From Corynebacterium halotolerans (GTDB taxonomy: Bacteria; Actinomycetota; Actinomycetes; Mycobacteriales; Mycobacteriaceae): a DNA stretch of 64,000 nucleotides. The stretch covers positions 310,001 through 374,000 of the forward strand of contig NZ_JVMD01000015.1 in assembly GCF_001056295.1 (NCBI RefSeq), written 5' to 3'. Positions 56,988 through 64,000 of this stretch are shown piece after piece. A program made the translations under genes and the position numbers. Positions within the stretch are counted from its first letter, which is position 1, and every line of letters begins with the position of its first letter. The notes under the pieces are model-generated. The model was not told the origin of the DNA. It saw nothing but the letters and a program-made list of their open reading frames with translations, and ran no database searches.

Positions 56988-58444
56988 CTACACCGCGTCC
57001 CCGGGCTCGAGCAGCCGCGCCACCGCGGCCAGCGGCAGTTCCAGCCACCCCGGCCGGTTCTGCGCCTCGTACAGGCACTCGTAGATGGCCTTGTCCAGGA
57101 TGAACGCATCCAACAGCGCGGCCTCGTCCCGCGGGTCGCGGCCCGACGTCGACGCATAGCCGTCCAGGAACGCCCCGACGTTGCGCTCCGCCCACTCGTG
57201 GACGCGGTAGCGCTGCTGGCGGGAATCCTCGCGGCCCGTCAACAGCGGGTAATGCGCCGCGTAATCGAAGGAGCGCACCATGCCCGCGACGTCGCGCAGC
57301 GGATGGTCCGGCAGCCGGCGCTCGTCCCACGGCCGCGACGGCTCGCCCTCGAAGTCGATGAGCAGCCAATGCCGCGGCGTGCGCAGCACCTGACCCAGGT
57401 GCAGGTCGCCGTGGATGCGCTGCACCGGCACGCCATCCGCGTCGACCGAGGCGGCCGCCTTGGCGAAGATCTCTTCCGCGGCGTCGTAAAGCTCCTTGAC
57501 CTGGGGGACGAGCCCCGCCACGTGCTCCAGTCGCGCCCGCATCGGCGCGACCAGCTCCTCGCCCGACACCCGGCGGCGCACCGGCACGGTCGCCGCGAGG
57601 TTGTCGTGGACCTCCGCCACCGCGGCGCCCAGCGCCGCGGACTCGACGCCGAAATCGGTGCCCAGGTCCTCCGGCTGGAGGTCGCCCTCGCGAATGATGT
57701 CGCGCACCGACGTCAGGGCCATCGACCAGCCGTCGGCGGAATTCGGCACGAACTCCTGCAGCATCGACGTCGTGTACGCCTCGCCGCCGACCTCCAGCTC
57801 CGTCCACCCGTACAGGTGCGGGACCGACCAGCACTCGGCCGCCGACAGCGCCGCCAGCAGCTCGACGTCGGCGTTCGTGCCCGGGTGGAGGCGGCGGAAG
57901 AACTTCACCATCACCACGTCGTCGTAGATGACGGAGGTGTTCGACTGCTCCACGCCCATCGGCCGGCCCTTTTCCGGCGCGGCCAGCTCGGCGCCCGGCA
58001 CGCGGTGGAGCGTCATCGGCCCCAGCGCGCCCTCGGCCGCCAGCGTCGTGCCCAGCGCCGTCACGGCCGCGGGGTCGACCAGGGCGTCGTAGCCGAGCAC
58101 GCCCTCGCCGGCGACGAGCAGCGCGTCCTCGTGGCCCTCGGGCAGCGAGTCGCCCCACGCGATGGGCAGCAGGTACGCGGGGGCGGCGTCGCCGCAATGC
58201 ACCCGCACGAACAGGATGTCCACGTCCGGGGACTCCGCGTCGCCGCGGACGGCCGGTTCGCGCACCAGGATCTCCAGCCGGTCGATCCCGGTGGCCTTGT
58301 CGGCGAAGAACCGCTGCGCGGGCAGCGTCCGGACCAGCTCCGAGGCGATCAGGTCGACGTCGGGCAACTCGATGCCGGAAGCGTCCGGGCCGGCCGACGC
58401 GCCGCCGCGGGCGCCCTGGGTGGGGTTAGCGTTTCCGTTGTCGT

Positions 58445-58448
<4 letters not shown>
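56988..58448 (-). CDS. mak: maltokinase
   Basis: Phosphorylates maltose (made from trehalose by TreS) to maltose-1-phosphate for GlgE-dependent glucan synthesis. The 486 residues match actinobacterial maltokinase: an aminoglycoside-kinase-like catalytic loop [11 protein letters not shown] (about 352-362), [14 protein letters not shown] with the metal Asp, and [19 protein letters not shown] (about 168-186) for the nucleotide site. The N-terminal 25 residues are a flexible Asn/Gly-rich start. The ATG overlaps the treS stop (ATGA), so the two are coupled, as in mycobacteria. Confidence 0.93.
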
Positions 58449-60211
<1,763 letters not shown>

Positions 60212-60286
60212 GATGACCAGCGTAGGGAAACGCCGGTCAACTCGCAGACGGCCGATGCCGGGCCGTCCCGGACCGCTTTGCGACGG

Positions 60287-61810
60287 CTATGCGCCGCGCC
60301 GTTCGTCCAGCACCCGGACCAGGCGCGCGGCGTCGTCCGGCGCGAGCTGCGCCGCGGTGACGGAGACGGGGCCGCCGACGAGGTCGATGCGGACGTCGAC
60401 GAGCGACAGCGCCCGCGACAGGGGCCCCTGCCGCAGGGTGCGGCCCTGGATGCGCGACCAGGGGAGGACCGCCCGGCGGCGGTGCAGCCGGCCGGAGGTG
60501 ACCACCAGCGCCCGCGGGGTGATGCGCACGGTCTGGTTGCGCCAGTCGATGGGGGACAGCCACACGGCGCGCCGCGGCGACGCCCACCGGGCTTCGGAAG
60601 GCTGGTGGCGCTGCCCCGTGATGCGGCCGATGAGGCCGTCGACCACGGCATCGGCTTCGGCCAGCGGCGCGACCGGCAGGAGGGTCGTGGATACGTCCGA
60701 GCCTTCGCCGGCGTAACCGGCGACGTTGATGCGCACGGTCGCCCAGTGCAGCGGCCGCCACCAGGCGGGTTCGACGATCTGCATCGCGTGGATCCGTCGG
60801 ACGGGGATGGTCTGGCGGCGCGTCGACGTCAGGCCGGCGCTGATGTGGAGGCGACCGGCGGCGTCGTCGGCGGACAGGGTGAAACCGTGGAATTTGTTCC
60901 ACCTCTGCCACGCCGACGCGACGATGCCGGCGAAAAACACCGCGATGCCGATGAACGACGTGCCGGCGACGGCGCCGATGGCCAGTGCCACGGCTTCGCC
61001 GAGCGTGACGCCCCCGCCGAGGCCGAAAGCGGTCGTCGCCGCGAAGGCGGCGCCGACGAAGACCACGGGCAACGCCAGCAACAGCAGTCCGGGGCCGATG
61101 ATCGCCGACCCGAACAGGCGCGGCGGCGGGACCGGGCCGTGGAGGACCGTCGTGGAGCCGGGGGCCGGGCTCGCGGCCGCGCCCCAGTCGCCGGTGGTGA
61201 ACGGGTCGTCGTCCGTGTCGTGGAAGTGCGTGTCGTGGATTCGCGCGGCCGTGTCTCCCGCGTCGCCCGCGGTGTCCCGTTTCGCCTCGAGCACCGCGGC
61301 GCGCACCGCCCGGCAGTCGTCCAGGGGGAGGAAGCGGATGGTCAGGTCCGAGTGGTCGCCGCCGGCGGTTTCCACCTTCACTTCGCCGAGCCCCGCCAGT
61401 CGCGCCAGCAGCGGCTGGTTGACGTCGACCGCCTGCACGCGGTCGAACCGGGCGGTGCGGCGCGACCTGATCAGCCATCCCGAGCCGATCCGGACCTCGT
61501 CGTCGGCGAGCTCGAAGAACCGGTGGCGCCAGGACACCCAGGACGCGACTGCGGTGATGGCGAGGACCAGCACCGAGACGCCGGTGACCGACAGCCAGAG
61601 GAGGGGGCCCGAACCCGTGGCCAGTTCGATCAGCTCGCCCGCGAAGGTCGCCTGCTGGACGACGTTGAACGCGATGACGGCGATGATCGCCGCCAGCGCC
61701 CGTGCGCCGGCCAGCAGCGGGGTGAGGGGGTGGACCCGGCGGCGGCCGGGCCCGATCGGGCCCCCGTGGCCGGCGGAATGGCCCGCGGGCCGGGGTTCGG
61801 GGTGGGTCAC
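60287..61810 (-). CDS. PH-domain membrane protein (YdbT type)
   Basis: A 507-residue protein with up to three bacterial PH-2 domains and about four membrane spans in pairs (about 45-95 and 240-310). The PH-type motif FFELADDEVRIGSGWLIRSR is near 108-127, then FDRVQAVDVNQPLLARLAGL and a further TIPVRRIHAMQIVEPAWWRP. Members work with a shorter YdbS-type partner and may protect the membrane or bind lipids. Its GTG overlaps the stop of that partner gene (GTGA). Function not established. Confidence 0.88.
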   Translation of the reverse strand: MTHPEPRPAGHSAGHGGPIGPGRRRVHPLTPLLAGARALAAIIAVIAFNVVQQATFAGELIELATGSGPLLWLSVTGVSVLVLAITAVASWVSWRHRFFELADDEVRIGSGWLIRSRRTARFDRVQAVDVNQPLLARLAGLGEVKVETAGGDHSDLTIRFLPLDDCRAVRAAVLEAKRDTAGDAGDTAARIHDTHFHDTDDDPFTTGDWGAAASPAPGSTTVLHGPVPPPRLFGSAIIGPGLLLLALPVVFVGAAFAATTAFGLGGGVTLGEAVALAIGAVAGTSFIGIAVFFAGIVASAWQRWNKFHGFTLSADDAAGRLHISAGLTSTRRQTIPVRRIHAMQIVEPAWWRPLHWATVRINVAGYAGEGSDVSTTLLPVAPLAEADAVVDGLIGRITGQRHQPSEARWASPRRAVWLSPIDWRNQTVRITPRALVVTSGRLHRRRAVLPWSRIQGRTLRQGPLSRALSLVDVRIDLVGGPVSVTAAQLAPDDAARLVRVLDERRGA

Positions 61811-62292
61811 AGCCCCGCCATTCTCTCGCGGGCGCGGCCGGAGAGGCGCTCGCGCAGGGCGCGGGCTTCGTCGCGGGGGATTCCCGACAGCTGAGCGTCG
61901 GATGACGCCGACGCGGTGTTCAGCTTCACGGTGGCCAGGCCGAACGCGCGCAGGAGCGGGCCCTCGTCGATGTCGATGAACTGGATGCGCCCGTAGGGGA
62001 CCACCGTGACCGAGCGCCACCACCGGCCGCGGGCGACGATCATGTCCTCCGCGTCCTCCCGGTAGCGGTGGGCCGACACCTGGCGGCCGATGATCCAGAG
62101 GGTCCACGCGAACGCCGCCGCGACCAACGCCACGGCGATCCACGACAGCGGGTGCAGGAACACGGCCGCCGCCGTCGCCGCGATGAGCGGCGGGAGGAAC
62201 CAGATGGCCGCCGAGATGCGGCGCACGGCCGCGAGTTTCGGGGACACTGGGGTCAATTCGGGATCATCCGGATCCAGCAGGTCGAGCGCCAT
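61807..62292 (-). CDS. PH-domain membrane protein (YdbS type)
   Basis: A 161-residue protein with two membrane spans (AIWFLPPLIAATAAAVFL and IAVALVAAAFAWTLWIIG) and one PH-2 domain: DMIVARGRWWRSVTVVPYGR and IQFIDIDEGPLLRAFGLATV. It is the short partner of the YdbT-type protein that follows. TAGCTT (62300-62305) ends 7 nt before the ATG. Confidence 0.9.
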   Translation of the reverse strand: MALDLLDPDDPELTPVSPKLAAVRRISAAIWFLPPLIAATAAAVFLHPLSWIAVALVAAAFAWTLWIIGRQVSAHRYREDAEDMIVARGRWWRSVTVVPYGRIQFIDIDEGPLLRAFGLATVKLNTASASSDAQLSGIPRDEARALRERLSGRARERMAGL

Positions 62293-62366
62293 GGGATTGA
62301 AGCTAGCAGCAGCCGGGGATCGGCGGCGGGTGAGTGGAGGCCGCTCGATTTCGGCATGATGGGGGC

Positions 62367-62579
62367 ATGGAACCGCAGCGACGAGACGACGATCCCGCCC
62401 CGCGATGGGACGGCAGCCCCGATCCGCGCCCGATGCATGAGCGCGGCGGGCCCGATGGCGATCCGCACGGCGACAACCTCTTCATGAAGTACCGCGGCCT
62501 GTGGGCCGTGCTGATCACGCTGATCACCCTGCTGGCGTGCTGGCAGATCCTGCAGATCGCCCTCGACGCGGGGTTCTGA
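62367..62579 (+). CDS. small single-span membrane protein
   Basis: A 70-residue protein with a polar Asp/Arg/Pro-rich N-terminal part and one membrane helix (GLWAVLITLITLLACWQILQ, about 44-63). CATGAT (62355-62360) ends 6 nt before the ATG. Divergent from the PH-domain pair, 74 bp away. Function unknown. Confidence 0.6.
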   Translation: MEPQRRDDDPAPRWDGSPDPRPMHERGGPDGDPHGDNLFMKYRGLWAVLITLITLLACWQILQIALDAGF

Positions 62580-62643: not shown

Positions 62644-62715
62644 GATATAACGTCTCTAACGTCGACCCGCAGATCTAACGGATCTAACGGAGAAATGAAG
62701 ATCTAACGGATCTAA
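62644..62715. repeat. 9-bp repeats in a 28-bp register upstream of the AAA ATPase
   Basis: GATCTAACG units start at 62672, 62681 and 62700, with a shortened one at 62709 and degenerate ones at 62644 and 62653. They form pairs of adjacent 9-mers repeated every 28 bp (62644, 62672, 62700), three turns of DNA with a small offset. They lie 74-145 bp before the ATPase start and suggest a binding array for a regulator. Confidence 0.7.
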
Positions 62716-62788
62716 CAAAACGTCGCCAAGCACAACCCAACCGACGACCCCGGGGCGCGTCGACGCCCCGACGACAGGAGCGCCGACG

Positions 62789-63928
62789 ATGGCCGAGCAC
62801 CCGCGCCCACGCAATCCCTTCCGCCCGACGTTCGGGGTGTCGCCGCAGGTCCTGGCCGGTCGTGACCGGCTTCTCGAGGATTTCGAGCTCGCCCTGGCCG
62901 AGGGACCGGGCAGCCCCTACCGGGCGATTCTCGTCAGCGGGTCGAGGGGCATCGGCAAGACCGTCCTGCTCAACGAGCTCGAGGACGTCGCCCGTGGCCG
63001 GGGATGGGTGATCGCGCGGGCGCACGTGGGCGAATCGCTCGTCGACGACCTCGTGCGCACCACGTTGCCGGCGCTCATCGCGGACATCGCGGATGAGCCG
63101 CCCCGCCGCGCGGTCACCGGCGCGTCGATCACCGGGCTCGGCTCCATCACCGTGTCCGCGCCCGCCGACGACCGGCCGGCGCCGACCCTCATCGGCCGCC
63201 TGCGCGAGGTCTCGGAGCTGCTCCGCGCCCGCGGCACGGGACTGCTGATCACCGTCGACGAGGTCCAGAGCGCCGACCCGGCGGCCATGAAGACGCTGGC
63301 GATCGCCTACCAGGACCTGATCCGCGACGATTTCGACGTCGCCTTCGCCGCCGCCGGCCTGCCGCGCGGCATCGACGAATTGCTCCAGCTGGAGGGCACG
63401 ACCTTCCTCCGCCGCGCCGAACGCCTCGAGCTCGGCCCCGTCGACCGCGACGCCGCCATCGACGCCCTCGCGCGCACTTCCGCCGACGGCGGCATCCCCA
63501 TGGACGGCGACGCCGCGGCCGCGGCGGCGGACATCTCGCGCGGGTACCCGTACCTGATCCAGCTGGTGGGCTCGCTGGCGTGGGCGCGGGCTTCGCTTGA
63601 CGACGGCACGGCGATCACCCGGTCCGACGTAGCCGCGATCCGCGACCGCGCCATCGAGCGCATGGGCGCCCAAGTGCACAGGCCCTCCCTGCGGGAGGTG
63701 CCCGACGGCGAGCGCATCGTGCTGGAGGCGATGGCCGACATCATGGCGGAGACCGGGGAAGATTCCGCGGCAACCGGCGAGATCGCCGAGCGGCTCGGCC
63801 TGACTCCGCAGGGGTTGTCGCCCCGGCGGGCGCGGCTCATCGAACGGGAACTGGTCCGGGCCCCGCAGTTCGGCCGGCTCGAGTTCGCGCTGCCGTACTT
63901 CGCCGAGTACCTGCTGTCGCTGCGCTGA
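62789..63928 (+). CDS. AAA family ATPase with C-terminal winged helix
   Basis: A 379-residue STAND/ORC-like ATPase. Walker A is GSRGIGKT (about 51-58), Walker B LLITVDEVQ (about 151-159), with sensor-type ALAAAGLPRGIDEL region after. The C-terminal 100 residues hold a helix-turn-helix (AATGEIAERLGLTPQGLSPR, about 330-349). Related proteins act as ATP-dependent regulators or as part of mobile elements, but no partner is near. AGGAG lies 9 nt before the ATG. The upstream gap 62580-62788 contains the 9-bp repeat array and a GCTTNNCGACG copy at 62721. Confidence 0.88.
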   Translation: MAEHPRPRNPFRPTFGVSPQVLAGRDRLLEDFELALAEGPGSPYRAILVSGSRGIGKTVLLNELEDVARGRGWVIARAHVGESLVDDLVRTTLPALIADIADEPPRRAVTGASITGLGSITVSAPADDRPAPTLIGRLREVSELLRARGTGLLITVDEVQSADPAAMKTLAIAYQDLIRDDFDVAFAAAGLPRGIDELLQLEGTTFLRRAERLELGPVDRDAAIDALARTSADGGIPMDGDAAAAAADISRGYPYLIQLVGSLAWARASLDDGTAITRSDVAAIRDRAIERMGAQVHRPSLREVPDGERIVLEAMADIMAETGEDSAATGEIAERLGLTPQGLSPRRARLIERELVRAPQFGRLEFALPYFAEYLLSLR

Positions 63929-64000
63929 GGAATCCGGGCTTCGGCTCGGGAACCCCGGGGCCGAATCGGGGCCGGTACCGGGTGCCCGAATCCGGTGCCG

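Follow-up and report, generated by a model that had tools for sequence, protein, structure and literature searches.

Which protein reads the paired 9-bp direct repeats that precede an ATPase gene of Corynebacterium halotolerans, and which gene do they serve? Within the window—the whole 64,000-nucleotide stretch analysed here—the first-pass annotation had placed such repeats every 28 bp before an AAA ATPase with a winged helix, and the register (9 + 9 + 10) proved exact for all three pairs (62644, 62672, and 62700; Table 1), though the first is degenerate and unlike the others at three of 17 positions. A search with the 17-bp pair allowing up to three mismatches returned three matches in the window, all at the array (0.04 expected; none of 100 shuffles reached three), and GATCTAAC matched four times, again exclusively there (0.27 expected). 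Across the whole genome (3.15 Mb), the pair search found six places, namely the three array pairs and three scattered single pairs with two to three mismatches; its reversed-pattern control gave one match. Chance is thus not the source of the array, which occurs once in the genome. We also rejected a regulon, as the genome holds no further good pair, and an artefact of coding or promoter sequence: the array is flanked by an 81-codon frame (62334–62579) and the ATPase start at 62789, with no sigma-70-type promoter or terminator found around it. Four units do contain GATC, as annotated; the attached remark on DpnI is unsupported because GATC belongs to one word class only (see below), and a DpnI/Dam site was rejected, the other word classes being without GATC. 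Upstream of the array, the minus strand (56988–62292) encodes two bacterial PH-domain proteins, along with frames that we take to be maltokinase-like and trehalose-synthase-like.

Table 1 Features of the repeat array and the following ATPase gene (window coordinates).
Feature	Position	Strand	Evidence
Array pair 1, degenerate: GATATAACG (62644) + TCTCTAACG (62653)	62644..62661	+	Sequence, register, pair search
10-bp linker after pair 1	62662..62671	.	Sequence
Array pair 2: GATCTAACG (62672) + GATCTAACG (62681)	62672..62689	+	Sequence, register, pair search, word count
10-bp linker after pair 2	62690..62699	.	Sequence
Array pair 3: GATCTAACG (62700) + GATCTAACA (62709)	62700..62717	+	Sequence, register, pair search, word count
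AAA+ ATPase, 379 aa, AAA_16 + C-terminal winged helix, proposed array reader	62789..63928	+	Pfam, AlphaFold2, fold matches
Winged-helix part, residues about 305–379	63701..63925	+	Model secondary structure; limits are our reading
Predicted recognition helix, residues 340–352 (341 and 346 track the word)	63806..63844	+	Model helix, word–residue scans

The protein encoded behind the array matches Pfam AAA_16 (E = 1.5e-16) and, in an AlphaFold2 model built from 77 homologues (mean pLDDT 93.8), ends in a winged helix, which bears out the domain composition annotated at first pass; it is 86% identical to the protein of a C. xerosis record. G51, G54, G56, K57, T58, D157, and E158, Walker residues among them, are invariant in the 77 aligned homologues. 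Nearly whole-length fold matches were obtained with the archaeal ATPases PABY2304 (2qen; Z 23.2, 3.5 Å over 311) and SSO1545 (2fna; Z 22.9), followed by Aeropyrum Orc2 (1w5t; Z 21.5), behind which Orc1/Cdc6 structures (2qby, Z 17.3; 2v1u, Z 16.3) and NLR/apoptosome ATPases also rank. Judged by the model, the protein folds like archaeal ATPases and Orc/Cdc6 and may also be termed STAND-like. Unlike SSO1545 and PABY2304, to which it is 12–17% identical, the window protein has its Pfam match in AAA_16; at E up to 0.001, it matched AAA_16 and AAA_22 only, with no match to PF01637, which we take to be the Archaeal ATPase family. We know of no upstream array for either archaeal protein. Membership of a defence, phage, or named protein family was ruled out: no NCBIfam model matched, PADLOC did not identify a known anti-phage defence protein (best model Cas3b, E = 0.069), PHROGs returned only phrog_6841, of unknown function, a PDB sequence search gave nothing below 0.034, and one phage record among 50,697 carries a family member. 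At E up to 0.001, the family is present in 166 of 201 sampled Corynebacterium genomes and in 110 of 150 genomes sampled from the order.

Conservation of the array before related genes was one of the points on which the first-pass annotation had staked its reading, and the layout proved to be conserved. Among 116 near-full-length homologues—chosen best-first from a family search, not randomly, and including two loci of one species (L007 and L008)—86 carry at least four copies of one 8-mer (one mismatch allowed) in the 220 bp upstream, with at least one step of 8–10 bp; of the 123 ATPase loci fetched, L019, L047, L101, L102, L115, L116, and L121 were left out of this count. The same count gave 4/116 directly downstream, 15/115 about 600 bp downstream, 0/116 in mononucleotide shuffles, and 10/60 in tiles of the GC-rich window. 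With at least three sites, the numbers were 96 upstream, 16 directly downstream, 34 about 600 bp downstream, eight for shuffles, and 18 for window tiles. Some low upstream scores stem from GC-rich words that are not part of an array (e.g., L055, L067, and L070).

Constant across subfamilies is the layout, with units 8–9 bp apart and a linker of about 10 bp, whereas the word differs by subfamily. Within word classes, neighbouring units are separated by lags of 9 bp (118), 8 bp (54), or 10 bp (4), and clusters by lags of 17–19 bp (107); a lag of 28 bp also occurs (16), and triplets with the same linker occur in L076 and L040. Orientation is nearly uniform, with 393 matches on the coding strand versus 17 on the other. 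The vocabulary comprises the [AT]TCTA-type word of the window (GATCTAAC), TTTATCAA, TTTATCGG, TTCTCAA, and [AG]TCTCC, further [AT]TATCCA, TTATGCG, TCGTACA, TTTATA, and TTCTCGAA, and, in more distant paralogues, GATAGTAAA, TTCATAAA, TTGAATAA, and others. As we read them, most words would fit a T-rich constant 5′ half joined to a variable 3′ half. TTATCCA (upstream in L042, L044–L046, and L048) resembles the DnaA box, a likeness that probably arises by chance from the T-rich 5′ half. Only a sister branch showed an inverted layout, in which tandem pairs upstream of the start codon point towards each other and form an inverted repeat (11 loci: L120, L204–L208, L217, L223, L225, L227, and L228); the arms are 14 bp long with at least 13 complementary bases, and shuffles gave 0 in every group. 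By eye, repeats are visible in five of nine plasmid or phage records (L132, L133, L134, L137, and L139), the other four being unclear.

The words are also private to their genes. Matches to RATCTAAMRRATCTAAM number 21, spread over 13 of 201 genomes, with none for the reversed pattern; 19 of them immediately precede a family gene (the two in the window being judged by place), and the two exceptions form one array in genome G113. TTTATCAATTTATCAA matched 36 times in 25 of 201 genomes (control again 0): 24 of the 30 fetched loci lie at a family gene (one partial), six places lack an adjoining family gene, and the six unfetched matches belong by position to the same arrays. In nine genomes, each of the 42 paralogues has a tandem word—a count for which a single pair suffices, a level that shuffles reach in 19/116—and a paralogue's word stood in tandem before another paralogue in one of 178 ordered cross-comparisons (L202 to L118), from which fragments, the divergent pair of G063, and genome G129 were omitted. 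Divergent paralogues within one intergenic region have different arrays, each by its own start (L035/L194; L047/L115). This pattern suggests that each ATPase may read a private address at its own gene. Separately, a palindrome-like TACATAATGTACATTATC stretch recurs in intergenic positions beside L035, L047, L191, and L194 (genomes G063, G064, and G083) and, in two of these three genomes, sits between divergent paralogues.

On a tree computed from residues 9–300, which exclude the winged helix, the word classes—set by eye, with L072 reassigned into a class later—require 16 changes, against a minimum of 10 and a mean of 59.6 after shuffling. On this tree, TTTATCGG originates at four points, each time with I, L, or V at residue 346, whereas TTTATCAA readers have T. 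Residue 346 (I/L/V versus T/P/S) is the best of 371 columns at separating TTTATCGG from AA-ended words (GG versus AA, 1.00 versus 0.04; next column 0.875), with one exception in 35 rows (L104, a mixed word). Residue 341 (K/R) ranks first for C versus A at the third core base (40 of 40 rows; three runner-up columns at 0.967 versus 1.0), and both residues fall within model helix 340–352. Readers of TTATCCA and TTATGCG likewise differ, having SQLR and SRLR, respectively. Independent switches number three for residue 346 and one for residue 341 on starred branches (four and three on all branches), and sign tests cannot reach 0.05 because such switches are few. By plain mutual information, R346 comes first, with F361, Q341, P345, and R349 among the first eleven columns. 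In an identity-controlled regression over 313 columns, P340 ranks 4, Q341 9, R346 21, F361 22, R349 45, and P345 143, and enrichment of the recognition helix in the top 15 has p = 0.064; once overall identity is accounted for, the word effect shows no concentration in the recognition helix and the plain covariation signal is weakened. The case for the winged helix of the adjacent gene as the putative array reader is good but not decisive.

A promoter position for the array emerged from the start-codon flanks. In 58 of 115 genes, TANNNT is placed 6 or 7 nt ahead of the chosen start codon, against 0–6 genes at every other distance. We read it as the putative –10 box of a leaderless promoter, just upstream of which the array would cover the –35 region; such a placement favours repression by occlusion but may also allow activation. 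The window gene departs from this: its leader is longer, the leaderless –10 pattern is absent, and a search of its surroundings gave no sigma-70-type promoter.

We consider it likely that the array serves as a private operator for the ATPase gene behind it, and that the ATPase, as an oligomer, binds its own array and autoregulates its promoter. The winged helix of one protomer would read one 8–9 bp unit, neighbouring protomers would lie next to one another on a tandem pair, and pairs would load a larger, ATP-controlled oligomer; once bound, the ATPase would most likely repress its own promoter. Each subfamily would have changed its word together with recognition-helix residues, a coupling that would insulate paralogues of the same cell from one another. 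The first-pass guess, an array for a cooperative regulator that the winged-helix ATPase could itself bind, gains support from the observed conservation of the repeats, their privacy, and the tracking of word by residue; DNA binding is predicted, and we infer the oligomer, ATP control, and sign of regulation in the same way. MalT and other STAND regulators form ATP-controlled oligomers on repeated sites and act on other genes, whereas the present array belongs to its ATPase gene alone. IniR, a mycobacterial STAND ATPase that regulates transcription and whose ATPase domain has been compared with SSO1545, is 818 residues long, its middle part resembling MalT and its DNA-binding end SdiA (PMC5760070), in contrast to the 379 residues and Orc-type winged helix of the window protein. 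Among open-access papers, preprints not included, we found none on this ATPase family with its arrays. An uncharacterised but common ATPase family gains a first handle in the form of a likely DNA target, and the many natural reader–word pairs, several per genome, provide a test set for specificity change in winged helices and for paralogue insulation.

Arrays without a cognate ATPase occur in three genomes (G113, G142, and G162). At the orthologous place in G113 (L177, 1501–1546), two perfect pairs and no ATPase are present; the array abuts the end of a carboxylesterase gene, whose stop codon lies inside an array unit, and no ATPase family member was found in this draft genome. The simplest reading of the junction is a simple deletion. 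Six TTTATCAA pairs lie away from a family gene, two elsewhere and four just before tyrS (TIGR00234, E = 2.1e-113). The latter (a perfect TTTATCAATTTATCAAT pair near 1501 in L141, L143, L150, and L169, with no adjoining ATPase) are exact in 4 of 201 genomes, and none of the 123 ATPase loci contains tyrS; they are therefore not explained as leftovers of a known ATPase place. G142, one of these four genomes, showed no cognate ATPase word. The words readable before the family genes of G142 and G162 differ from the orphan pairs of these genomes, which are thus left without a visible cognate reader and may be relics, or targets of an unrecognised protein.

That orphan pairs persist in G113, G142, and G162 without a cognate family gene would fit an unlinked regulator, rather than the ATPase, as the reader of the arrays. 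However, the words are many, and each is tied to the subfamily and to the recognition-helix residues of the adjacent gene, so that as many unlinked regulators would be needed; we rate this reading as very unlikely. The gene-less G113 array abutting the carboxylesterase gene could also be taken to mark an end of a small mobile element comprising array and ATPase gene, or a site that it targets, and the neighbours of the family genes are varied and many gene copies broken. Yet this reading is highly unlikely: no array was seen at the 3′ side of the genes (4/116 by the strict count), Pfam reveals no recombinase domain in the protein, and the G113 junction is explained by simple deletion.

Initiation of replication, the iteron option also named at first pass, draws its positive evidence from the fold, with Orc2, Orc1, and Cdc6 structures among the best matches. 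An Orc/Cdc6-like or iteron-binding ATPase would then make each gene–array unit a present or past origin, acquired with mobile DNA; 112 of 72,556 plasmid records carry the family, and two of the nine that were read have it close to ParA- or ParB-like genes. The nearest known parallel is the haloarchaeal orc/cdc6 genes, with adjoining origin boxes that vary in sequence according to protein family (PMC3528665). Like them, the window gene combines AAA+ followed by a winged helix, in an Orc-like fold, with cognate repeats beside the gene, a tie between array and protein family, and several copies per genome; unlike them, the hosts are bacterial and the repeats, tandem pairs of direct 8–9 bp units, lie at the promoter of the adjoining gene itself. 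The window array, with its 8–9 bp direct units and 10-bp linkers, does not have the layout of long boxes that surround an AT-rich unwinding element. The fold and the linkage are shared, but host, unit length, direct order, and promoter position differ, and we therefore file the genes as a self-addressing autoregulator family. The Corynebacterium genes are, moreover, chromosomal, with up to 13 matches per genome (fragments included), and the array sits on a promoter, which leaves initiation very unlikely. An extension that we regard as unlikely would posit a widespread bacterial Orc/Cdc6-like ATPase family, each member with a private, evolvable array whose word is changed after gene duplication through a simple code in the recognition helix. 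Taken to its extreme, this view would make the unit a portable bacterial equivalent of orc/cdc6 and origin boxes, and a Corynebacterium chromosome might then contain as many as about ten additional initiator sites that are normally silent. With these genes, an Orc/Cdc6-like protein and its cognate repeats become accessible in ordinary, easily handled bacteria. As a side observation, the stretch from the ATPase stop codon to the convergent gene downstream contains several AATCCGG/AATCGG-type repeats, both in the window (63930–64000) and in L007 (2640–2740).
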